A stretch of 64,000 bases of DNA, from IMG/VR virus record IMGVR_UViG_3300005582_000001, positions 48,931 through 112,930 of that record; one strand, given 5' to 3'. The first letter of the stretch is position 1, and each line of letters begins with the position of its first letter. The notes under the pieces are model-generated. The model was given only the letters and a program-made list of their open reading frames with translations, was not told the origin of the DNA and ran no database searches. Source of the DNA: a virus. Below, in pieces: positions 2,798-62,881 of this stretch. Position numbers and translations under genes: made by a program.

Positions 2798-4132
2798 CTA
2801 CATGCCGCTCATGGCATCTTCTCGCTCGCGATCCAGCGTCTCCGCTCGCTGTCGAGCAAAGTTAATCTTCATCATCACCAAGTCTTCGCGGATGCCTCGG
2901 TTGCGGTTCTTGCGGCAGTAGATGCGATATTCGCTCGCGTCTTGGTAGGTGTCGTCGTAGCGCTTCGGCCAGAACGGCATCAGGACCACATCGGCATCCA
3001 TCCCCATCGCGGCCGAGTCGCGAATGTCGGCCAGTTGCGGAGTCGGGTCGGGGCGTTTGTCGATGTCGCGGTTCAGCTGCGCCAGCAAGATCACGCGAAT
3101 CCCATGCTTCATGGCGACCCCCTTCATGCGGGCGGATACGTCCGCAACCTTCTCCTGCTTGTTGAAACCTTCCCCGACCAGAATCTGGGCGTAGTCCACG
3201 CAGACCACCTTCACGCCGTGCTTTTTGACGGCTTCCGCGATCTCGCGCTCAGCGCGGCCGATCGTGTGGCACTTCTCCGTCACCCAGATCGGGGCCGAAT
3301 TGGCAAAGTGTTCCTTGGCTTCAAACCGGAGTTGCTTCGAGGACTTCATCCACTCGGAGTCAGGCATCGCCGAGACCATCGCCATCGTTCGTGACGCCAG
3401 CATCGCCGAGGCCATTTCCTCGGAGACGATCATGCCAGGGACGCCGTGAGAGGCCGCGGCGTGCAGCCACTGGAGGCCCAGCAGCGTCTTCCCGATGCTC
3501 GTCGAGGCGGCAATCACAATCAACTCGCCAGGGGCCGACCCGCGAATCAGCAGGTCGATGTCGCCGATCCCATCGTACAGCGACGGGCTGATGCCCGCCT
3601 CAAGATCGTCGATCATCTCATCGACCAATTCGGACAGGGGCCGGAGGCGGCGGACGGCCGTGTCTGATGCCATCTCCCCGAGTGACGCCGCCGCCTTGAG
3701 CGCGGCTTCCACAACCTCGCCCTCGTCGGAGGTGGCGTTGTAGGACGACTCGATCAGCTTGCGGCCGATCTCAATGGCCTTGCGCCTGTTCGACCGAGAC
3801 ACCACGACGCTCGCGTAGTAGGCCGCGTGGGCTGAGTGCGGGACGGTTTCGAGGATTTCCATCAGGTACTGCGGGCCACCCACTTCAGCCAGTGACCCGC
3901 GAGACTCCAGTTCCTGCGCCAGCATCACGACATCCACAGCGGAGTCGGACTCAGACAGGGACACGATCGCCGAGTAGATCGCGCCGTGAGTGTCGGCGTA
4001 GAAGTCCGCCGCCTGAATCAGCGGCTGCACCTCGGCAAGCCTGTTCGGATCGAGCATCAGTGCCCCGAGCAGGCTGCGCTCGGCGGTCAGGTCTTGCGGG
4101 GGTAGTCGGCAGTCGTTCGGTTTCATGTTCAA
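2798..4132 (-). CDS. dnaB: Replicative DNA helicase, DnaB family
   Basis: 444 aa, the usual length for phage DnaB-type helicases. The N-terminal domain starts with LPPQDLTAERSLLGALMLD, the hallmark of the primase-interacting DnaB N domain. Walker A is AASTSIGKT at about 208-216 (Ser-Ile replace the more usual Gly/Val-Gly before GKT), and Walker B is VVCVDYAQIL at about 309-318. RDSAAMGMDADVVL is the C-terminal arginine/sensor region. The protein unwinds the phage replication fork. It follows the initiator directly: a TTG at 4132 overlaps the initiator stop, with an ATG two codons later as alternative start. The pair forms an initiator-helicase unit like lambda O-P or phi80-type modules. Confidence 0.95.
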   Translation of the reverse strand: MNMKPNDCRLPPQDLTAERSLLGALMLDPNRLAEVQPLIQAADFYADTHGAIYSAIVSLSESDSAVDVVMLAQELESRGSLAEVGGPQYLMEILETVPHSAHAAYYASVVVSRSNRRKAIEIGRKLIESSYNATSDEGEVVEAALKAAASLGEMASDTAVRRLRPLSELVDEMIDDLEAGISPSLYDGIGDIDLLIRGSAPGELIVIAASTSIGKTLLGLQWLHAAASHGVPGMIVSEEMASAMLASRTMAMVSAMPDSEWMKSSKQLRFEAKEHFANSAPIWVTEKCHTIGRAEREIAEAVKKHGVKVVCVDYAQILVGEGFNKQEKVADVSARMKGVAMKHGIRVILLAQLNRDIDKRPDPTPQLADIRDSAAMGMDADVVLMPFWPKRYDDTYQDASEYRIYCRKNRNRGIREDLVMMKINFARQRAETLDREREDAMSGM

Positions 4133-5193
4133 AATGGGGCGTCCTGTGAGAGTTGGGCGAGAAGTTCATCACCAAGATTCAAGTGCGGTCGTGCTGGAGT
4201 CAGTGGCGGATTTTCCGTCGTGCGCCGCGTTTGGAGTACCTTCGATGGGTCGGGCGCGGAGACTCGCGGCTTGGGGGGATGGCCAGACAGACCACGCGAC
4301 TTTTCCCACACATCGACGCCCCACTCGGCCGGGTCTTCTGCGTATCCCCCGGACTTCAGCCACGCCGCAGGTGCCGGAATTCCTGTTCTGGGAGAAGTCG
4401 CGACAAACTTGGACGCCCCGTATTCCGCTGCCTTGGCCAACAGGTGATCTACGCACCGTTGATCGTCCCAGCCGTGCCTGTCGCGGAGATTGACCATCTC
4501 GACTTCCAGTGCCTCATCAACGTCATTCGGCTTAACTTTCTTCGGATACGCTGCGATGAACTGATCGACCCATTTGTTCAGTGGAGTCATGAGCATCAGT
4601 CGGTCAGCTTTCGCCTGGTCTTCCTTCGATAGCCCCACCGGAAGGGATCGCCACTCGGAACCGTCATGAGCGGCTGGGTCATGGCCTTTCAGAATCGAAG
4701 ATGCAGGGAGAGAGAAATCTTCTTTTTCTTTCTTTGAAGCTGATTCTGATTCTGAAGCTGCTTCTGATGTACTGACAGTGCTGACATTCTCTGACATTCT
4801 CTGACATTCTCTGACATCCTCTGACGCTTTCTTTCGTTCTCTCGTCTGTCGCTGATGTTCGGCGTTCTTGATCTTTCTGTCTTCCGCGTCAAGTTTTTCG
4901 CGGTATTTTCCGTGGTTCAGCAGGCACCAGCCACCATCGACGGCCTTGATGCGTCGGCCATCAAAGTCCTTGGTGCGCGAGTATTTGTCGGGGGACAGCA
5001 GGCGATTCAAGCTCTCCTCGGTTTCCTCAATTGTTAGCCGCGCGATGGTAGCGAGGCCCGGAATCGACGACTGGACCTCTCCGTACTTGTCCGCCATCGC
5101 GAGCATCGTGATCCAGAGGACTTTGGTTTCCTTCGACTCGCCCCAGATCGTGGAAGCGAGAATTGAACCAAACAGCTTCGTGTAACCGTTCAT
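4129..5193 (-). CDS. Replication initiator / helicase-loader-like protein
   Basis: 354 aa. The N-terminal 110 residues (MNGYTKLFGSILASTIWG, then LTIEETEESLNRLL) look like the winged-helix domain of phage replication initiators of the O/DnaD-like kind. A Ser/Glu/Lys-rich linker follows at about 115-160, then a helical C-terminal domain. It sits immediately upstream of dnaB and overlaps it, which fits a loader or initiator role. The linker is encoded by four tandem 10-bp repeats next to a pyrimidine-rich AT-rich tract, an arrangement like the lambda origin inside gene O. Family assignment is from context and fold pattern, not from a definite signature. Confidence 0.8.
   Translation of the reverse strand: MNGYTKLFGSILASTIWGESKETKVLWITMLAMADKYGEVQSSIPGLATIARLTIEETEESLNRLLSPDKYSRTKDFDGRRIKAVDGGWCLLNHGKYREKLDAEDRKIKNAEHQRQTRERKKASEDVRECQRMSENVSTVSTSEAASESESASKKEKEDFSLPASSILKGHDPAAHDGSEWRSLPVGLSKEDQAKADRLMLMTPLNKWVDQFIAAYPKKVKPNDVDEALEVEMVNLRDRHGWDDQRCVDHLLAKAAEYGASKFVATSPRTGIPAPAAWLKSGGYAEDPAEWGVDVWEKSRGLSGHPPKPRVSAPDPSKVLQTRRTTENPPLTPARPHLNLGDELLAQLSQDAPF
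4711..4780. other. AT-rich, pyrimidine-biased tract inside the initiator gene
   Basis: On the plus strand this is a CT/AT-rich run (AAATCTTCTTTTTCTTTC and following TTCTGAT repeats) unlike the GC-rich surroundings. It directly abuts the four decamers at 4781 on the side facing dnaB. I read it as a possible DNA-unwinding element of an origin; the evidence is composition and position only. Confidence 0.4.
4781..4826. repeat. Four tandem 10-bp iteron-like repeats inside the initiator gene
   Basis: Three perfect copies of CTGACATTCT followed by CTGACATCCT and a partial CTGACG, all in register at 10 bp, one helical turn. The unit is not a multiple of three, so it is not explained by a repeated peptide. 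The core CTGACAT recurs, inverted, in the three decamers upstream of the same gene and in the 25.2 kb control region. Candidate initiator binding sites. Confidence 0.6.
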
Positions 5194-5210
5194 GTGAACC
5201 GCTCCGTCAG

Positions 5211-5240
5211 GTGATGTCAGGTGATGTCAGGTGATGTCAG
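5211..5240. repeat. Three tandem 10-bp repeats upstream of the initiator gene
   Basis: GTGATGTCAG occurs three times without gap, preceded by a partial copy (CCGTCAG). Its complement, CTGACATCAC, shares CTGACAT with the repeats inside the gene. The block lies between the leader terminator at 5279 and the ATG at 5193, where a bound protein could act as autorepressor or origin element. Confidence 0.6.
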
Positions 5241-5278
5241 GTTTTTTCGTGACGCCCAACGAGTCTGGCCCGCGCGTG

Positions 5279-5324
5279 AAAAAAGCGTCGCGAAAGCGCC
5301 CCTACCACAGGACTTTCGCGACGC
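5279..5324 (-). terminator. Strong intrinsic terminator in the initiator leader
   Basis: On the minus strand GCGTCGCGAAAG and CTTTCGCGACGC form a perfect 12-bp stem with a 16-nt loop, followed at once by six U. This would stop transcription arriving from the genes to the right, before the initiator start at 5193. Confidence 0.85.
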
Positions 5325-5398
5325 CACCAAGCCCCCAAAGGGGAACCTGAATTGAATTTGCTCGCCGCTCGCCGTGGTAGGGCTACGCGACATTTGTT
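5279..5398 (-). ncRNA. Attenuator-like leader or small RNA ahead of the initiator
   Basis: Between a probable start point near 5398 and the terminator at 5279 the RNA holds CCCTACCAC (5382-5374), perfectly complementary to GTGGTAGGG in the terminator loop (5308-5300), and GTCGCG (5391-5386), complementary to CGCGAC (5292-5287) in the terminator's 3' arm. The long-range pairing and the terminator's 3' arm are mutually exclusive, the geometry of a transcription attenuator. The same sequence could instead be a short regulatory RNA. There is no convincing ORF in it. Confidence 0.5.
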
Positions 5399-5404
5399 TT
5401 TGCC

Positions 5405-5432
5405 ATCCTATCAACCGACTCGGAAGAATCAA
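5405..5432 (-). promoter_or_regulatory. Possible sigma70-type promoter for the initiator leader
   Basis: TTGATT (5432-5427), a 16-bp spacer and TAGGAT (5410-5405) on the minus strand, just after the stop of the upstream gene at 5457. Each hexamer matches four or five consensus positions. The predicted start falls just before the segment that pairs with the terminator. Confidence 0.4.
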
Positions 5433-5456: not shown

Positions 5457-5732
5457 CTAAGGGGCAGCGACCGGTTCCTTGGCGACACTCAACCGCGCCG
5501 CCTGCTGCTCGGCCTCATCCGCCCAATCCATCAAGTGCCCGGCGAGCTTCCGCGCCACCTTCGGGCCAAGCGAGAACCTCAAGGTCTCACACCGCTCGAT
5601 CTGCGCGGTCCCGGCCCCCACAAACTCGACTTGCCGCTCGTAGACCGACAGCACCGCCTCGATCTCGGGGACGATCTCGCCCTCGACCAAGTTGTGCCGG
5701 ATGTTTCTTGCCGTCGAAAATAGCTCTTTCAT
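5457..5732 (-). CDS. Hypothetical helical protein
   Basis: 91 aa beginning MKELFSTARNIRHNLVEGEI, nearly all helix with many Glu/Ala. No motif recognised and no membrane segment. The ribosome site is weak (GGAG twelve bases upstream). It is the last gene before the terminator at 5279, so it closes a leftward transcription unit. Confidence 0.7.
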   Translation of the reverse strand: MKELFSTARNIRHNLVEGEIVPEIEAVLSVYERQVEFVGAGTAQIERCETLRFSLGPKVARKLAGHLMDWADEAEQQAARLSVAKEPVAAP

Positions 5733-16739: not shown

Positions 16740-17022
16740 GTCACGTTATCCTGTCGTTACCGTCGCGTTATCGTGATGATGTTTTTACAGAATGTTCTTA
16801 GATAAGTCAAACCATATTCTTTCCTCGCTCTCGCAGTGCCATTTGCTCTCTTGTTTTCGGGAAATCTCCGTAATGAGGCAAAATTCAATGGATATTGCGG
16901 TAGCCGCCGCAATAATGTGACGAATCCGTTGCGTTTCCGTTATTTACTGATCACAGCGGAACTCATGCGATTATGCGATTATGCGTGGGTATGTGGGTAT
17001 GTGGGTATGTGGGTATGTGGGT
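16740..17022. promoter_or_regulatory. Divergent control region of the lysogeny module
   Basis: AT-richer than its surroundings, between the leftward HTH gene and the rightward gene at 17023. It contains an 8-bp inverted repeat at 16893-16914 and an octamer repeat at its right end. It probably carries the early switch. Confidence 0.5.
16893..16914. promoter_or_regulatory. Operator-like inverted repeat
   Basis: TATTGCGG and CCGCAATA, perfect 8-bp arms with a 6-bp spacer, in the middle of the divergent control region. It could be the operator of the HTH protein at 16440. Confidence 0.5.
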
Positions 17023-17024
17023 AT
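16985..17024 (+). repeat. Octamer simple-sequence repeat overlapping a gene start
   Basis: Five tandem copies of an 8-bp unit (TGGGTATG) run into the ATG at 17023, preceded by two copies of a TGCGATTA-type unit. Every unit contains an ATG and eight is not a multiple of three, so gain or loss of a unit changes which upstream ATG is in frame and the spacing to any ribosome site. Confidence 0.75.
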
Positions 17025-17367
17025 GGCTAAGAAAACGAAATCAGCAGAAACTCTCGTTGGAGCGGTTGCTCGCGCGATGCCGGATGGTCGCGTCAATCCA
17101 GCCGACACCCGCAGGGGAATTGTCTCGATGCACGCTGTTTTGACAGACGTGCAGACGTGCCGAGATATCCTGGCGTACATCGAGGCCACGGCTAAGCTGG
17201 CGATCGACCGTGGTGCCGTCAGCTTGGAAACCGACGGCGTGACGCAGCTCGATGCGGCGAGGAAGCTCCTCGGCACGGCATCGGGGCATCTCGCCAAAGC
17301 CTACCTCAGCGACGTGGCATCACGGCGACCCCACAGCGAGACACACACAGTCACCGACACAGAATAG
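17023..17367 (+). CDS. Hypothetical protein, possibly phase variable
   Basis: 114 aa from the ATG that ends the octamer tract; the same frame is open upstream through the repeats to 16981. MAKKTKSAETLVGAVARAMP starts a helical protein with no known motif. It lies between the control region and the att site. Not recognised. Confidence 0.6.
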   Translation: MAKKTKSAETLVGAVARAMPDGRVNPADTRRGIVSMHAVLTDVQTCRDILAYIEATAKLAIDRGAVSLETDGVTQLDAARKLLGTASGHLAKAYLSDVASRRPHSETHTVTDTE

Positions 17368-17667: not shown

Positions 17668-17751
17668 TCGGATGCAGCGGAAATTTGCCCGCAACATCCC
17701 GCAGCATCCCGCAATTTGTCCGCACAACATCCCGCAGCCAGTTGACTCGCC

Positions 17752-18963
17752 ATGAGGACGCCACCGACACAACTGAAGCAGGACAAGACCACTGGCCGCG
17801 CGTTTGCACGCTGGCAGGGCAAGAAAGTCTACTTCGGTAAGTGGGACACCGCCGAGGCTTCCAAGGCGTTCGGGGCTTGGCTGGCAGGGTTGCACGCCAC
17901 GCCGACGGCACCGGACCTGTCACAGAACCTGACCGTCTTGCAGTGCGTCGAGCAGTACCTCTACCACGCCGAGTCCTACTACTCGAAGGACGGGCAGACG
18001 ACGCAGGAGTACCGGAACGTCTGCGCGGCGATGCAGACGCTGATCTGGCACGCGGGGGGGCCAAAGGATTTGGCGCGGGACTTCGGGCCACGGAAGCTGA
18101 TCGCGCTCCAGAAGGCGATGGCGACTGAGACGGTTTCTGAGACGGTTTCGACGCTGCGATATGCGCGGAACACGATCAACTCGCGGATCGGCAAAATCCG
18201 ACGCTGCTTCCGCTGGTGCGCGGCACAGGAGCTGATCCCGGCCGAGATCGTGACAGCCTTGGAGATGGTGGACGGCGTGCCCGAAGGGCGTGGGATGGCG
18301 CGGGAGTCGCCGGAGGTCGGGTCGGTCACGATCGCGACCGTGATCGCGACGTTGCCGCATCTCTCCCCCACTGTCGCGGCAATGGTGCAGGTCCAGCTCC
18401 TCTGTGGGATGCGCCCGCAGGACGTGTGTGGCATGACCTGGGGGCAGATCGATCGCACGGGCGATGTCTGGCTGTACCGCCCGCTGCGGCACAAGATGCA
18501 GCACAAGCGGCAGTCGCTCGTGAAGGCGATCCCCGTCGCCGCGCAGCAACTGCTGACACCACTACTGCGGGAGGGACGCGACGAGCTGATCTTCTCGCCG
18601 GTCGATGCCAGCGAGTTCTGGCGGTCACAGGAGCGGAAGCCGCGCACAGTGCCGAAGGTGCGGGAGTGCGCGCGGGGGCCGTATGCGACCAGCGCCTACG
18701 GGCGAGCCGTGGTCTACGCCATCGCTCGGGCGAACAAGTCGGGCGCGACGGTGCCGCACTGGACGCCCAACCAGCTACGACACGCCATCGCCTCGCAGTT
18801 GCGGGGAACGAGCGGGATCGAGGCGGCGCAGGTGTTTCTCGGCCATGCCAAGCCCGACGCGACGCTCATTTATGCGGAGCAGTCGGAGGCGCGATTGATT
18901 GAGATCGCGCGGGCGCTGGTTTCACCGCTTCCCAGTCCGTCTCCTGCGGCGAAAACTGACTGA
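17752..18963 (+). CDS. int: Tyrosine-type site-specific integrase
   Basis: 403 aa. An N-terminal arm-binding-like domain is followed by a SAM-like core-binding domain (about 60-165) and the catalytic domain. Catalytic residues visible: Arg in LLCGMRPQD (R221), Arg/His in PNQLRHAIAS (R343, H344), His in FLGHAKPDA (H365) and the nucleophile in TLIYAE (Y374). The usual His of HxLRH is Asn, as in planctomycete-style integrases. It integrates the phage at tRNA-Gly using the adjacent core. TGAGACGGTT also occurs twice inside the gene (18126 and 18138). Weak ribosome site, so expression may be low. Confidence 0.93.
   Translation: MRTPPTQLKQDKTTGRAFARWQGKKVYFGKWDTAEASKAFGAWLAGLHATPTAPDLSQNLTVLQCVEQYLYHAESYYSKDGQTTQEYRNVCAAMQTLIWHAGGPKDLARDFGPRKLIALQKAMATETVSETVSTLRYARNTINSRIGKIRRCFRWCAAQELIPAEIVTALEMVDGVPEGRGMARESPEVGSVTIATVIATLPHLSPTVAAMVQVQLLCGMRPQDVCGMTWGQIDRTGDVWLYRPLRHKMQHKRQSLVKAIPVAAQQLLTPLLREGRDELIFSPVDASEFWRSQERKPRTVPKVRECARGPYATSAYGRAVVYAIARANKSGATVPHWTPNQLRHAIASQLRGTSGIEAAQVFLGHAKPDATLIYAEQSEARLIEIARALVSPLPSPSPAAKTD
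18126..18147 (+). repeat. Arm-like repeat pair inside int
   Basis: TGAGACGGTT at 18126-18135 and 18138-18147, the same motif as around the att core, here coding for ETVSETVS. It could be a coincidental repeat of codons or a third arm site. Confidence 0.4.
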
Positions 18964-19072: not shown

Positions 19073-19130
19073 TGTGGCCCCTTTTGTATTCACAGCAATC
19101 CAGCACACCAGACAGGCGAGAGTCGAGCTG

Positions 19131-19170
19131 GCTTGAATTGGCTTGAATTGGCTTGAATTGGCTTGAATTG
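19131..19170. repeat. Four tandem decamers GCTTGAATTG
   Basis: Four identical copies at exactly 10 bp, placing each on the same face of the helix. No gene runs through them convincingly. The 10-bp period is shared with the iteron-like blocks at 4781 and 5211, but the sequence differs. Confidence 0.7.
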
Positions 19171-22282: not shown

Positions 22283-24085
22283 GTGACCGAGCAACCTCAA
22301 CGACAGATCGCTTCCCCGTGGATGTGGTGGTTCGTCACCTTCGCCATCCTGTTCTACGCCACCTCCTGCTACGGCGATCCCTACGACGCGCGGACCCGCA
22401 CCGCCGCCGCCAAGGTGGCCTCCGAGGCTGCCGATCAACCGATTCTGCCCGATGCCCCGCCCAACGTGCGGTTGAGCATCAAGCGGATGGCCGTCGCGGC
22501 TGTCGGCCCCGAGGCAGAGGAGCAAGGCGTCTGCCCGGAAGAAGCGTCGGTGCTGATCTCGATCAACGGCCGACTGCATGGCAGCGGGGTCTACGTGATG
22601 CACAATGGCGTGCCGCTGTTACTGACGGCGGCGCACGTCGTCGAGGAGCATCGCGAGCCGTTCGTCATCAAGGCGGGGGACGCGGTAGCGCAGCGCGTGC
22701 TGGTCGATCACAAGACGGACATCGCCGTGCTGTACGCTGGCCCTCATGCGGCCATTGAACTGGCTCCCGCCGATCCGGCGCGCGGCGACGCCGTGACGAC
22801 ATGGGGCATGGACAAACACAGCACGCTGTCCGAGGTCGCAGATGTGGTGGCGGACGTGCTGGAAAACAGCGGCTGGCGTGACCTGCCGGGAATCTCCTGC
22901 CAGACCTTTCCGCCACTCGGGCGCTCGGGCGGCGGGCTGTTCCGCAATGGGGCGCTCGTGGGCGTGTTGCACTTCCGCGATCCCGCGCCACGCTCCGGGG
23001 TCTACTCGCGTCTCGCCACGCTCCGCAGCGTGTTGGAGCGCGTGAATCTCTCGGGCCGTCGGCGAGCCGTGGTCTATACCGGCGAGGACGTGCATGGGAG
23101 CAACTGGTGCGTGAACTGCCCGGCCCTCAAGGCCAAGCTGCGCGAGGGCAACGAATCACTCGACATCACCTACAGCCGGGCCGTTGCTCCCGGTGACGTG
23201 CAACTGTACCCCGCCGTCCGGTTCGTGGACCTCACGGGGACCGAGTGCTATCCCGCACGTCCCGTCGGCGGCAAACTGGAGTACCACACCGTCGCCAGTT
23301 GCGGGGAACTGCTGGAGTTCATCGAACGGAGCAACCCGCCGTGCCGGATCCCGGCCCCCGTGGCAGGCATGGGTGGACGCCGACGGGAGCAACGTGAGCA
23401 GCAGGGCCGGGCCGCGTTGTCGATGCAGGGCCGCGACCGTGTGATTGCCGCCATCGCCTACGCCCAACAGTGGGTGCCCGATTCGGAAGGCGTCACTGAT
23501 CTCCAGCAACTGGCCGACGCAACCGTCTCCCTGACGTGGCAACGCAACGGGGCGAGCAAGCTCCCGCTCTTGGCCGCCGAGCAGTGGACATCTGTACAGT
23601 TGTTCGGGACGCACGGTCACTTCCGGTTCATCACCCCCAAGGGGTCAACGCCGGTGCGCGAGTTCGGGACCGGCTACCAATTGCGAACGCGGCCTGACGG
23701 GGGCGAGACGGTGCATCTGACGCCCGACCCGGTGGACATCGACCTGCGGGCACCAGGCGAAGCCCCGTCGTCGTCATCCGAGGCGTGTGGCTTCGATCCG
23801 ATCACGCTCGGGCTGACGGTCATCAACGTGATCTCGGGTCTGTGGCAACTGGCTCATCCTGAGTTTTCGCTCACGTTGGGACCGGATATCGAGGTGACGG
23901 GCCGCATCAGCGGTGAGTCGCTACTCGTCGGCTTCAATTCTGATTGCCCGTCGATCGAGGCCAAGGCATGGTTCCTCCGCGCCACGTTGCGCGTCACGTC
24001 GGTCGAGGTCTCGCCGGAGCGAGTCCGGTTCCGGTTCGAGAAGAACTGGACGGGGATTACTCAGCGCGATTTGATCGTCGAGTAA
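22283..24085 (+). CDS. Secreted trypsin-like serine protease
   Basis: 600 aa from a GTG with AGAAGGG upstream. WMWWFVTFAILFYATSCYG at 13-31 is a signal peptide or anchor. The catalytic triad is visible: His118 in LLTAAHVV, Asp146 in TDIAVLY and Ser215 in LGRSGGGLF. A Cys pair in WCVNCPALK and a C-terminal beta-rich region with FDPITLGLTVINVISGLW follow. It probably acts in or beyond the periplasm. Planctomycetes carry many such proteases, so it may be of host origin. Roles could include envelope degradation, superinfection exclusion or lysogenic conversion. Confidence 0.85.
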   Translation: MTEQPQRQIASPWMWWFVTFAILFYATSCYGDPYDARTRTAAAKVASEAADQPILPDAPPNVRLSIKRMAVAAVGPEAEEQGVCPEEASVLISINGRLHGSGVYVMHNGVPLLLTAAHVVEEHREPFVIKAGDAVAQRVLVDHKTDIAVLYAGPHAAIELAPADPARGDAVTTWGMDKHSTLSEVADVVADVLENSGWRDLPGISCQTFPPLGRSGGGLFRNGALVGVLHFRDPAPRSGVYSRLATLRSVLERVNLSGRRRAVVYTGEDVHGSNWCVNCPALKAKLREGNESLDITYSRAVAPGDVQLYPAVRFVDLTGTECYPARPVGGKLEYHTVASCGELLEFIERSNPPCRIPAPVAGMGGRRREQREQQGRAALSMQGRDRVIAAIAYAQQWVPDSEGVTDLQQLADATVSLTWQRNGASKLPLLAAEQWTSVQLFGTHGHFRFITPKGSTPVREFGTGYQLRTRPDGGETVHLTPDPVDIDLRAPGEAPSSSSEACGFDPITLGLTVINVISGLWQLAHPEFSLTLGPDIEVTGRISGESLLVGFNSDCPSIEAKAWFLRATLRVTSVEVSPERVRFRFEKNWTGITQRDLIVE

Positions 24086-24277
24086 GTCGCGCAGCTTGTC
24101 GTTCGCGGCGTCGAGTGCTGTGAGAAGTGCGTGTCGGTCGCGGATGCCATCCGTGGCAAGATCAAGGTAGTCACCGAAGACGTGAATTTTCCCGCTATCG
24201 GCAACGCGGTCGGGGTGATGTGCAATGGCATCTCTCGCGCGAATCGCCTCAATCTCTGCCGCTGTTGGGGTAGTCAT
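23921..24277 (-). CDS. Small phage protein with hybrid, possibly truncated 3' end
   Basis: 118 aa from the ATG at 24277 with AAGGA nine bases upstream. MTTPTAAEIEAIRARDAIA and DRHALLTALDAANDKLRDLL follow the common phage pattern in which EIEAIRARD opens a protein with the late helix ALLAALD. The last third is antisense to the protease's end (165 bp), which suggests the original C-terminus was lost when the protease block was joined. Confidence 0.55.
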   Translation of the reverse strand: MTTPTAAEIEAIRARDAIAHHPDRVADSGKIHVFGDYLDLATDGIRDRHALLTALDAANDKLRDLLDDQIALSNPRPVLLEPEPDSLRRDLDRRDAQRGAEEPCLGLDRRAIRIEADE

Positions 24278-24290
24278 TTTCGTCGTCCTT

Positions 24291-24545
24291 CTATGGTTGG
24301 TCGTAGGAAGGGTCATCCATCACGCGGTAACAGTGGTTCGGCGTCTCCGGTGTCGAGCGGTCCACGCCGATCACATTGACCCAGTGATTCCATGCTTCAT
24401 CGGAGAGTAGATTGGCTGTCTCGACTGCAATACATAGCGATCGGACGCTACGGCTGTGCTGATCGCATCTCTCTCGCACCGCCCATGCCGCTAGGAAGCT
24501 GGCCGCGAACTGTCGCTTGAATTCAGCTTCATCTCGTTCGTGCAT
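24291..24545 (-). CDS. Hypothetical helical protein
   Basis: 84 aa from the ATG at 24545 with GGAGA seven bases upstream; upstream in-frame starts lie in non-coding sequence. MHERDEAEFKRQFAASFLAA starts a mostly helical protein, ending in VMDDPSYDQP. Not recognised. Confidence 0.6.
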   Translation of the reverse strand: MHERDEAEFKRQFAASFLAAWAVRERCDQHSRSVRSLCIAVETANLLSDEAWNHWVNVIGVDRSTPETPNHCYRVMDDPSYDQP

Positions 24546-24990
24546 CGTGGTCTCCGGAAGAGTCGTTTTAAAACAAAAACCTAAATTTTTTCTACAAGGC
24601 GCGCTGATCAAATCAGACAGGGGATTGATGCAACACCAACGGCGCATGGTGCGGTTCCGGCGACGGGAGCATCTTGAGCGCTTCGCTTGAGGAGTAGGAT
24701 TCCGACTGCGTCGGCAGAGTGACTCCAGCCTTGCGGCTGTCGTAGGACTTGAACTTGCTTGGTGGGGAGAGAGTGAGCAACCGACAGATTCCCCTACTAT
24801 CCCCAGCTTTGCAGCAGTGAGGACAGGAGGCTGTCGGCTACGAAAACCTGCCCGGCGGCTTCGGTCGTTCGCAGACTCTTTCAACGGCATAGTCTCGCGT
24901 TGCCGTCGGGCCGGGGAGTTGCACCCCGTTGTCGAGCAGACCCAGATTCCACGCGGACGGCTTGCGGCAGTCACTCGCGCGGGGTCGATC
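24546..24990. other. Non-coding stretch with several short hairpins
   Basis: No gene with plausible start, composition and ribosome site on either strand. On the plus strand CGGCA/TGCCG, CGGGG/CCCCG around AGTTGCA, and an outer GCCGTC/GACGGC pair (24902-24962) form a nested set, so a structured RNA is possible. AT-rich AACAAAAACCTAAATTTTTT at 24573-24592 may hold the promoter of the 84-aa gene. Confidence 0.4.
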
Positions 24991-25039
24991 AAAAAGAAAA
25001 ACCCCGCGACAGTCCGTTGCAGGGAGAGTTGTCGCGGGG
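24991..25039 (-). terminator. Intrinsic terminator of the small RNA
   Basis: Minus strand: CCCCGCGACA and TGTCGCGGGG form a perfect 10-bp stem with an 18-nt loop, followed by U5-C-U5. No coding gene lies immediately upstream on this strand. Confidence 0.85.
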
Positions 25040-25096
25040 CATCGGTTTACGCCCGAGGGCGATAGTCGAGAGCTTAGACAGTCCTGCAACGGACTG
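24991..25096 (-). ncRNA. Probable stand-alone small RNA of about 100 nt
   Basis: It has its own promoter (25102-25130) and terminator (24991-25039) and no ORF. The 5' end CAGTCCGTTGCAG (25096-25084) is perfectly complementary to CTGCAACGGACTG (25022-25010), which is most of the terminator loop plus two bases of its 3' arm, so a pseudoknot or alternative fold is possible. A small hairpin CGCC-CTCG-GGCG lies between. The design parallels the initiator leader at 5279. Confidence 0.6.
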
Positions 25097-25101
25097 CAAA
25101 C

Positions 25102-25130
25102 ATCATCGAGATGTTTCTTGGAATTGTCAA
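25102..25130 (-). promoter_or_regulatory. Sigma70-type promoter of the small RNA
   Basis: Minus strand: perfect TTGACA (25130-25125), 17-bp spacer, GATGAT (25107-25102). The predicted start at about 25095-25096 coincides with the first base of the pairing segment. Confidence 0.6.
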
Positions 25131-25210: not shown

Positions 25211-25270
25211 CTGTCAGCTCTGCGTCAGAGGATGTCAGGTGGTGTCATCGCTGTCAGGTCATGTCAGGTG
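25211..25270. repeat. Cluster of CTGACAT-type motifs
   Basis: Reading plus: CTGTCAG, GCGTCAG, GATGTCAGGT, GGTGTCATCG, CTGTCAGGTC and ATGTCAGGTG follow each other at about 10-bp intervals. ATGTCAG is the complement of the CTGACAT core of the repeats at 4781 and 5211. No gene runs through. Likely binding sites for the same protein. Confidence 0.6.
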
Positions 25271-25401
25271 TAACGGGTGACGTAACGTAACGCGCGTTAC
25301 GGGCGCGTAACGGGTGTGAACCAAACGTGAACCCACCTTCAACGAAACCGCAACGCTCGTTGAACCAAACACGAACCACCGTTGAACCCACCTTCACCCC
25401 A
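25271..25401. repeat. 16-bp palindrome and nested direct repeats
   Basis: CGTAACGCGCGTTACG at 25286-25301 is a perfect palindrome, flanked by further GTAACG copies on both sides. After it TGAACCAAAC occurs twice and GAACCCACCTTCA twice in a tandem imperfect array up to about 25400. Together with the CTGACAT cluster this is a dense protein-binding or origin-like region ahead of the late genes. Confidence 0.55.
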
Positions 25402-25513
25402 CCTCCACGCAGAACTTTCCAGAACATCCGCTGAAGTCGCGTTGGAGTTCTGGGAGACTCCGGTCAAACTGGCTGGGACGTTCGGCCCTCACCCTGCCCC
25501 GACGCCCCGCAAC

Positions 25514-25954
25514 ATGAAGTCTCCCAACATGATTTCCCACGCCACCGGGCTGATGTCCGAAGTGTCCCTGACGCTGTTGATCCTGTTCACCGCCTCGGCG
25601 GACCTCGCCGTCAAGATGGAGGTGGCCACGCCGGACCAAATCCTGATCTTGTGGTGCCTGGTCGGTGGCCTGATCGGCTCGATCGTCTCGCTGCGGATTT
25701 TCCGCGTGAAAGACATCAACGACGGGACATGGCAACTGCTGGCGAACCTCGGCATCTCGTCGATGGTCGCCCCGATCCTGACGGACCTGGTTGGAAAATA
25801 CAGCGGCTACCCCGTCGGCGTGCGATTGGCGCTGCCGGTGGCCTTGGTGCTGGGCATCGTGGGCGAACAGGCCGTGGCGCTGCTGATCCCGATCGCCAAA
25901 CGCTGGTTCGTGGCCAAGGCGTCTGTCGCCGCTGGCGAGCCGCAGCAGCCCTAG
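25514..25954 (+). CDS. Multi-span membrane protein, holin-like
   Basis: 146 aa from the ATG at 25514; upstream in-frame starts lie in the repeat region. At least three hydrophobic segments: SLTLLILFTASADLAV, ILILWCLVGGLIGSIVSL and LALPVALVLGIVGEQAVALL, then a basic tail. Size and topology fit a holin at the head of the late operon, but there is no endolysin next to it, so the role is inference. Confidence 0.5.
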   Translation: MKSPNMISHATGLMSEVSLTLLILFTASADLAVKMEVATPDQILILWCLVGGLIGSIVSLRIFRVKDINDGTWQLLANLGISSMVAPILTDLVGKYSGYPVGVRLALPVALVLGIVGEQAVALLIPIAKRWFVAKASVAAGEPQQP

Positions 25955-39285: not shown

Positions 39286-39852
39286 TCAGGCAACGTCCAG
39301 CATCCGGCGGATTTGGCAACGCGCGCTGAGCGACCGGCGCTTGACCTCCGAGAGATGGCACAGCACGCTCTCCGAAATCTCGCGCAACTGCTCTCCGCAA
39401 CAGAATCGCCACAACGCTTCTGATTGTCTTTCAGGGAGTCGGGACAGGCACCCCTTGGCTCGACTCACGTCCTCGGCGACAATCGCGGCCTCCAGCGGAT
39501 TGGCCTCGCGCGACTCGAACAGCGACACGAAATCCTCCTCATCCTCGCGGCCACCGCTCGGGCCAGAGAGAGTCTCGGGGTGTCGCTGCCGCGCACGACA
39601 CAAATCGGCAATCCGGTTTCTCGCGATCCGCCGGACCCACGGCCGAAACGCCCTGCCCGGCTCGAACGTGTGCCGTCTGGCCACGACTCGCAACAGGACT
39701 TCGGAAGTCAGATCATCCGCGTCATTGTGGTTCAGGCCGTGTCCGCGCGCCAGTGAGTGGATGATCGACGACGCGAGGGGATGCAGCGCGGTGAACGCCG
39801 CATCATCACCATCGCGGTATCGCGACATGAGATCGTCTTCGGGGTGCGTCAT
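39286..39852 (-). CDS. ECF-family RNA polymerase sigma factor
   Basis: 188 aa. Region 2: DADDLTSEVLLRVVARRHTF and AFRPWVRRIARNRIADLCR. Region 4: CLSRLPERQSEALWRFCCGE followed by SEVKRRSLSARCQIRRML. The linker between them is long and acidic. It would direct host RNA polymerase to phage (late?) promoters or act in host takeover. ATG overlaps the stop of the upstream gene. Convergent with the SSB-like gene. Confidence 0.88.
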   Translation of the reverse strand: MTHPEDDLMSRYRDGDDAAFTALHPLASSIIHSLARGHGLNHNDADDLTSEVLLRVVARRHTFEPGRAFRPWVRRIARNRIADLCRARQRHPETLSGPSGGREDEEDFVSLFESREANPLEAAIVAEDVSRAKGCLSRLPERQSEALWRFCCGEQLREISESVLCHLSEVKRRSLSARCQIRRMLDVA

Positions 39853-61240: not shown

Positions 61241-62881
61241 ATGCCTGCTCCGCTCGAATCCTCGCCTGAATTGATAAACGAGCTGGATTTTCTACTCGGC
61301 AACTGGGATCGACTCACGGACGCGGAGCGGGAGTTTTTAGTCTCCTGTTCTAGGTTCATCGACCGGGGCTACCGCGTCAATAAGTACATGATGGCAGTGC
61401 GGCCGAACCTGTATCCGAAGCAGCAGAAGTTCTTGGGTATGAACGACTTAGAGGTGTATACCGGAGGTTCCGGGGGTGGTGGAAAAAGCGATAGCCTTCT
61501 TCTGGCGGCCCTTCAGTTTGCGGATGTCCCCACGTATTCCGCTGTCGTGTTCCGCTCGACATTCAAGAACCTCAATCGCTCCGGCTCGATCATGGACCGT
61601 TGCCGGGACTGGCTGCGAGACTCCGACGCCCACTGGGACGGCAATGACTACCGGTTCACGTTCCCCGGCGGCGCGAAGATCGGGTTCGCCTACATGGAGT
61701 CACTCAAGCACGCGGACCAGCACCGATCGGCAGAGTACGTTTTTTGCGCCTACGACGAGGTGACGGAAATCCCCGAGGAATGCTACCGGTTCCTCTTCTC
61801 GCGTATGCGACGCAACAAGAACGGCCCCGCGATCCCGCTTCGCTGCCGCAGTGCCAGTAACCCCGGAGGGGAACACGCCGCGTGGGTCAAGTCCCGCTTC
61901 ATCCCGCCCGAGTATCTGGCGTGCAAGGACAACGACTACCGGTTCAGTCGCGCGTGGGAGAAGTCCGACCCGTGCGGCGACTGTGGCGGGACCGGGAAGC
62001 TCGACGACATCGAGTGCCTGTATTGCGACGGGCTGGGGAAGCAGGTCCGGGTGTTTCTCCCGTCGCGAGTGCAGGACAACCCGGCGCTCGACGCGAACGA
62101 GTACCGCAAGTCCCTGTCACGCATGACGTGGATCGAACGGATGCAGGTCGAACATGGGGACTGGGACATCACTGCCGAGGGTGGCGTCTTCCGCATGGCC
62201 TGGCTGCGATACTACACCGTCCAAGGGGAGTATCTGCGGCTCACTCGGTTCGATGAACACAACCGCCCGCTGCCGGACGTGATCGTCTCGCGCAGGGAGG
62301 CGATGGTGTTCGTGACGGCGGACACGGCAACCAAGGCCAAGACCAGCGCCGACTACTCGGTGATCGCAACATGGCTGTTTCATAGGGCTACTGGCTCACT
62401 GGCCCTCCTTGACGTAATCCGCAAGAAAGTGGACACTCCCGATCTGTTGCCGCTGTTGTCGGGTGCGTGCCTACAGGCCAAGGCCAAGTTTGTCTTGATT
62501 GAAGAGGCTTCGTCAGGGACGGAACTGATCCAGTTGTTGCGGAAAAACAACGCCTGTATCGGTGGCATCCCGGTCAAGTCGTATCTGACGGGATCGCTCG
62601 ACAAGGTGGCACGATCGGCCCCGGCTCAGTTACGGATGGAATCGGGGATGGTCTACTTCCCTGCGTTTGAGACGGCTTGGAAAGCCGAGTGCGTGGCCGA
62701 GTTGCTCTCGTTCCCGAAGTCGGTCAACGACGACTTTGTGGACAACGTGAGCATGGCGGCATGGTACGCCGAGAACCACAACTCGATTCACGTTGGCGGA
62801 AACAACGCCAGCAACCTGCCCTCCGAAATCGGCAGCGGCCCCCTGCTTTCATTCACTCGCAGTTCACTCGATGAGTATTGA
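61241..62881 (+). CDS. terL: Large terminase subunit with inserted zinc motif
   Basis: 546 aa. ATPase: Walker A VYTGGSGGGGKS (about 72-83), Walker B VFCAYDEVTE (167-176). Nuclease: FVTADTATKAKTSADYSV (about 357-374) with the first catalytic Asp. Between the domains PCGDCGGTGK (C245, C248) and ECLYCDGLGK (C259, C262) form a DnaJ-like CxxCxGxG zinc pair not usual in terminases. It cuts and pumps DNA into the prohead. Confidence 0.92.
   Translation: MPAPLESSPELINELDFLLGNWDRLTDAEREFLVSCSRFIDRGYRVNKYMMAVRPNLYPKQQKFLGMNDLEVYTGGSGGGGKSDSLLLAALQFADVPTYSAVVFRSTFKNLNRSGSIMDRCRDWLRDSDAHWDGNDYRFTFPGGAKIGFAYMESLKHADQHRSAEYVFCAYDEVTEIPEECYRFLFSRMRRNKNGPAIPLRCRSASNPGGEHAAWVKSRFIPPEYLACKDNDYRFSRAWEKSDPCGDCGGTGKLDDIECLYCDGLGKQVRVFLPSRVQDNPALDANEYRKSLSRMTWIERMQVEHGDWDITAEGGVFRMAWLRYYTVQGEYLRLTRFDEHNRPLPDVIVSRREAMVFVTADTATKAKTSADYSVIATWLFHRATGSLALLDVIRKKVDTPDLLPLLSGACLQAKAKFVLIEEASSGTELIQLLRKNNACIGGIPVKSYLTGSLDKVARSAPAQLRMESGMVYFPAFETAWKAECVAELLSFPKSVNDDFVDNVSMAAWYAENHNSIHVGGNNASNLPSEIGSGPLLSFTRSSLDEY

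Follow-up and report, generated by a model that had tools for sequence, protein, structure and literature searches.

Two candidate attenuator-type RNA switches with complementary 5' and terminator loops in an uncultured temperate phage

Introduction

The ColE1 RNAs RNAI and RNAII carry fully complementary hairpin loops of 6-7 nt. In phage lambda, the origin is situated inside the O gene itself. In pT181-type leaders, a 5' hairpin carries an antiterminator that sequesters the 5' portion of the stem of the terminator, and the antisense RNA first binds by kissing (PMC4878617). The repR leader of pIP501 is attenuated by RNAIII (PMC4981023). The CI RNA of the satellite phage P4 pairs with complementary leader sites, which leads to premature termination ahead of the replication genes (PMC4825925). 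Lambda OOP is a small terminated phage RNA near replication functions and is antisense to cII (PMC12197685), and the extrachromosomal prophages of some mycobacteriophages have RNA-based origins beside parABS (PMC7157519).

In the present study we describe two elements, c1 (about 25096-24991, minus strand) and c2 (5400-5279, minus strand), in the right-hand 64 kb of an IMG/VR virus record that is 112,930 bases long. This 64,000-nucleotide stretch is referred to below as the window. The two copies share their anatomy: a 5' hairpin loop is complementary to the loop of an intrinsic terminator, and two alternative folds are predicted to be nearly equal in energy. We give about even credence to the reading that both are bistable attenuator-type RNA switches, with arrays of CTGACAT-type repeats suggesting a shared regulator, and both are probably tied to replication control.

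The known systems resemble these elements in part. Like pT181 and pIP501, c2 is predicted to have two alternative leader folds around a 5' hairpin, terminator and antiterminator, before a putative replication initiator gene. The pT181 antiterminator takes the 5' part of the stem, whereas in the present elements the 5' strand would pair with the loop and with a portion of the 3' arm; the pT181 switch is set by an antisense RNA, but none is evident at c1 or c2. As with seqA and seqC of P4 CI, complementary segments lie within one phage leader. However, processed CI RNA acts in trans on up- and downstream sites, whereas c1 and c2 are compact units whose complementary partner lies in an intrinsic terminator loop. 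The ColE1 loops pair between two molecules, and those of c1 and c2 would pair within one RNA. In contrast to lambda OOP, c1 has no gene on the opposite strand. The mycobacteriophage origins are a further case of phage non-coding RNA linked with replication, but here an integrase gene is present and ParAB gave no match. Judged from the sequence, c1 and c2 appear to share the alternative-fold logic of known attenuators, with the complementary partner placed in the terminator's own apical loop. A limited test of the open-access literature found no described family with this geometry.

Results

Genomic context

The window contains the following genes, together with genes for RecT-like and RecE-like proteins.

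2798-4132: DnaB, following the putative initiator gene
4129-5193, minus strand: putative replication initiator/helicase loader, downstream of c2 and adjoining dnaB
17752-18963: integrase
22283-24085, plus strand: trypsin-like peptidase
25514-25954, plus strand: holin-like protein
61241-62881: large terminase

The product of 4129-5193 is called an initiator or loader mainly from its position and internal repeats, since its DnaD-like match is weak (E = 0.099). In its left part, the phage contig encodes a PhoH-like ATPase (L008:5060-5827). Tandem repeats of 8-10 bp occur between or near genes at 16965-17025, 17688-17714 and 19129-19170; examples are GTGGGTAT (five copies) and TGGCTTGAAT (four copies).

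c1 is located in a non-coding interval of ~1 kb, from a small minus-strand ORF (24291-24545) to the holin-like gene. This ORF and a second small one on the same strand, 23921-24277, lie downstream of c1, and the second overlaps the 3' end of the plus-strand peptidase gene by ~165 bases. Non-coding sequence before the holin-like gene (25286-25409) contains a 16-bp palindrome, CGTAACGCGCGTTACG, followed by eight GAAC-type repeats with 11-bp phasing. A large structured RNA was also considered in 24550-24990 and rejected, the fold being no better than those of shuffles.

Anatomy of the first element

The features of c1 are as follows.

25130-25102, minus strand: promoter-like site, with TTGACA at 25130-25125, a 17-nt spacer and GATGAT at 25107-25102
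25078-25097, minus strand: 5' hairpin GCAGUCC-GUUGCA-GGACUGU, apical loop 25090-25085
25083-25096, minus strand: 5' strand CAGTCCGTTGCAGG, complement of the terminator loop plus two bases of the stem
25050-25061, minus strand: minor middle hairpin
25039-25002, minus strand: terminator hairpin, 10-bp stem and 18-nt loop
25022-25016, minus strand: apical terminator loop CTGCAAC
24991-25001, minus strand: U tract TTTTTCTTTTT

The TTGACA, the 17-nt spacing and the GATGAT of the initial annotation are all present on the minus strand. This site scores 10/12 against the consensus. Sites of its strength number six in the 113-kb contig (2.0 in shuffles), and two of the six have a perfect TTGACA (shuffles 0.4). 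The phage encodes a sigma-70 family factor (39286-39852, minus strand; Pfam regions 2 and 4, the latter below its curated cut-off), so some of its promoters may not be of the host type. Some 60 non-coding bases separate the promoter-like site from the terminator on the minus strand. The initial annotation had seen no ORF at c1, and the codon model likewise finds the interval non-coding; one 17-codon ATG frame crosses the terminator, without a clear Shine-Dalgarno sequence. Downstream, the only candidate genes lie at a distance of 445 nt and are small, with a weak coding signal.

The terminator reads CCCCGCGACA, 18-nt loop, TGTCGCGGGG, TTTTTCTTTTT, and in the predicted fold its top consists of 3 bp closed by the 7-nt loop CUGCAAC. 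A perfect 10-bp stem with a U-rich tail had been reported here and is borne out: by the perfect-stem criterion this is the sole such terminator on the minus strand of the 113 kb, and no comparable one (10-bp stem and at least nine T) arose in 40 window shuffles. In a looser scan, c2 is the second strong terminator of the phage.

The predicted RNA covers about 24991-25098 on the minus strand (~105 nt) and folds better than shuffled versions (z = -3.70; 0/200 equally good). The proposed complementarity between its 5' end and the terminator loop with two bases of the stem holds, at 14 nt and not the 13 given: 25083-25096 matches 25010-25023 exactly, over 12 loop and two stem bases. None of 1000 dinucleotide shuffles gave an equally strong pairing of upstream strand and loop. 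The initial annotation did not include the predicted 5' hairpin, which competes with the long-range pairing. Its loop, GUUGCA, is complementary over six bases to CUGCAAC of the terminator loop, and this loop-loop pairing, extended by strand exchange, yields the 14-bp helix.

Forced folds of c1 gave -44.2 kcal/mol with the terminator and -41.6 kcal/mol with the long-range helix, and in the growing chain the long-range probability is ~1 at nt 86-94 and the terminator fold prevails from nt 98. These values, and those given below for c2, are equilibrium predictions, and kissing loops, pseudoknots and kinetics lie outside the energy model. Only two 3'-arm bases of the terminator fall within the long-range helix. 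The helix could therefore form a pseudoknot with a shortened terminator instead of excluding it.

A second element of the same design

c2, which had not been reported before, has the design and hairpin order of c1 with unrelated loop letters.

5364-5391, minus strand: 5' hairpin, apical loop CTACCAC at 5380-5374
5391-5386, minus strand: GTCGCG, which can pair with the terminator 3' arm
5327-5350, minus strand: middle hairpin
5285-5324, minus strand: terminator, 12-bp stem, apical loop GTGGTAG at 5308-5302
5279-5284, minus strand: U tract (T6)

The loops CUACCAC of the 5' hairpin and GUGGUAG of the terminator match at 7/7 positions. Because GUCGCG can also pair with the CGCGAC in the 3' arm of the terminator, the long-range helix is predicted to be a genuine competitor of the terminator fold here. 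Forced folds gave -53.1 kcal/mol for the terminator and -52.4 kcal/mol for the long-range form. In the growing chain the long-range probability is ~1 at nt 98-114, after which the ensemble is shared with the terminator; at full length it is ~72% long-range and ~28% terminator. In c1 and c2 alike, the balance lies with the long-range form up to the point at which the terminator is almost complete.

An early gene (5457-5732) lies on one side of c2, and the putative initiator gene (4129-5193) and then dnaB lie on the other. The consensus scan found no good promoter of its own for c2, and on the opposite strand its sole candidate was a weak plus-strand site at 5400-5429, reading away from c2. Its place before these genes and the competition that the folding model predicts with the terminator arm both agree well with an attenuator. 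The same reading is weaker for c1 than for c2.

Beyond the shared design, no alignable sequence was seen between c1 and c2. Should the two be paralogues, both partners of the loop pairs have changed and yet stayed complementary; if not, the design arose twice within one genome. Either origin would speak for selection on loop pairing, although it does not replace a comparison across phages.

Alternatively, a phage protein could bind the c1 repeats as DNA, with CAGTCC-N6-GGACTG as a dyad operator at the transcript start and the other copy as a partial site. The 5' copy is indeed a dyad directly downstream of the -10 element. However, the second copy sits within the terminator loop and retains the asymmetric GTTGCAGG without one dyad half, and c2 repeats the geometry in unrelated letters, which makes an operator very improbable.

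Rarity of the loop complementarity

Terminator loops were compared with the upstream 160 nt over 681 kb of phage sequence, and were complementary in two places only, both in this phage. Against dinucleotide shuffles of the upstream DNA, a loop-loop match of at least six bases has P = 5e-4 at c1, and the match observed at c2 was reached in 0/4000. Terminators were also counted under one common protocol. None of the 109 in 200 kb of E. coli K-12 has five or more matching loop bases. In this phage, two of 29 reach at least six, with the smaller loop fully covered in both. At other phage loci the count is 4/170 from two distinct sequences, in weaker terminators with apical loops of 19-21 nt. A looser scan of this phage and its relative G002, with 200 shuffles per terminator, returned p = 0 for the c1 and c2 loops; two weaker hairpins of G002 reached p = 0.005, about what is expected when some 47 candidates are tested. 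A search restricted to kissing hairpins whose stems are uninterrupted missed even c1 and c2; it was too strict and is uninformative.

These counts bear on the simplest explanation, that both are ordinary terminators with chance complementarity and that c1 is an unremarkable terminated transcript. This would agree with the single genome in which the elements occur, with no homologues found, and with the ~1-2% of terminators at other phage loci that reach six matching loop bases. The shuffle results for the loops, together with 0/1000 for the c1 strand pairing, argue against it, as does the sharing of the feature by two of this phage's strongest terminators. We regard chance as scarcely probable.

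Homologue and target searches

DNA patterns, blastn, neighbouring proteins and the terminase recovered no homologue of c1 or c2 in IMG/VR, GTDB genomes, phages or plasmids, and the material thus holds no covariation across species. The closest relatives found were a 6-kb contig at 96%, which stops short of the c1 region, and the 64.7-kb phage G002 (70% terminase identity), which lacks the element. Rfam gave no match in the window at gathering score, and only chance-level ones at c1 and c2. A match of c2 to ctRNA_pGA1 was discarded (18.2 of 45 bits).

Outside c1, the phage contains no complement longer than 12 nt, of the kind expected for RNAs of the P4 CI or P1 C4 type. Among trans targets in the phage, pairing of the c1 terminator loop and 5' strand was not enriched over shuffles. 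The middle segment exceeded 59/60 shuffles; it was one of three segments tried and folds on itself.

These searches are relevant to a different role for c1, as a stand-alone small RNA with trans targets such as host messages, which its CU-rich terminator loop would bind. The 5'-loop pairing would then serve as an internal lock or as a closed fold that adds stability, and c2 would be no more than a terminator with a similar closed fold. The overlap of two arm bases, the distance of 445 nt to small ORFs and the promoter-like site of its own make such an RNA a serious rival. A strong terminator, the lack of a convincing gene directly downstream and the compact fold would also suit it, and CUCUCCC in the loop could pair with Shine-Dalgarno sequences. 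However, neither the loop nor the 5' region is enriched for pairing with phage translation starts, and the position of c2 before the initiator gene would be left unexplained. On balance, trans action seems rather unlikely.

Repeat arrays and the link to replication

Three arrays of CTGACAT-type repeats, spaced by ~10 bp, were found, and arrays adjoin both elements.

4781-4825: CTGACATTCT array, 10-bp, inside the putative initiator gene
5206-5242: GTCAGGTGAT array, between c2 and the initiator gene
25212-25270: TGTCAG array (CTGACAT-type), 82-140 bases upstream of the c1 promoter

The arrays are probably origin or regulator sites. The putative initiator gene, with its internal array, resembles lambda O in this respect; the gene beside dnaB in G002 has internal repeats that differ from those here. 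Circumstantially, the position of c2 before the initiator gene and dnaB, together with the arrays, ties c1 and c2 to replication.

A link to replication had been suspected for c1 from the start, and this part is strengthened by c2 and by arrays at both elements. The accompanying idea of copy control is not supported in its antisense form. The phage has no ParA or ParB match and carries an integrase, and a plasmid lifestyle based on ParAB was rejected. Pairing between c1 and c2 was not significant, 21/200 shuffles giving an equally strong duplex. On the strand opposite c1, no replication primer or rep leader is known, and the neighbouring gene is holin-like. Lysis control, also mentioned earlier, would rest on the position of the holin-like gene, which lies on the opposite strand at a distance of 400 bases, and has no direct support.

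Related to both ideas, c1 could act like ColE1 RNAI or lambda OOP, as an antisense RNA to a plus-strand transcript running toward the holin-like gene, and so control lysis or replication. Plus-strand genes on either side, the nearby repeat arrays and the typical form of such RNAs (three hairpins, ~105 nt) are compatible with this. On the other hand, a consensus scan of 24.0-25.5 kb found no promoter-like site on the plus strand, the overlap would be non-coding and 400 bases from the holin-like start, and ParAB is not matched. The internal 14-nt complementarity would not be needed, and c2 would be unaccounted for. This antisense role is improbable.

Discussion

At the level of sequence anatomy, there is good support for the initial proposal of a phage regulatory RNA whose 5' end is complementary to the loop of its terminator. 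We infer that the c1 and c2 RNAs are made, that the loop pairing alters termination and that a trigger operates the switch. In the attenuator reading, the 5' strand of c1 would form the long-range helix during transcription by pairing with the loop of the terminator and with the beginning of its 3' arm, and the 5' hairpin would restrain this capturing strand. The terminator fold would win as soon as its arm is finished. c2 would set the share of transcription that reaches the replication genes. A DNA-binding regulator common to both elements, perhaps the initiator, may act through the CTGACAT arrays.

It is conceivable, and we suggest it tentatively, that the elements represent an undescribed class of phage RNA switch, in which intramolecular kissing between a 5' loop and the terminator loop sets termination, and which this genome would employ two or more times, each with an independent loop code, in the timing of replication. 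The loop letters differ between c1 and c2, and the loop code should therefore be swappable, so that compensatory mutation would test the mechanism directly. If confirmed, this would be a compact terminator design able to sense its own 5' end by pairing between loops, and it would show how RNA, in place of a protein antiterminator, might control the replication genes of an uncultured temperate phage.
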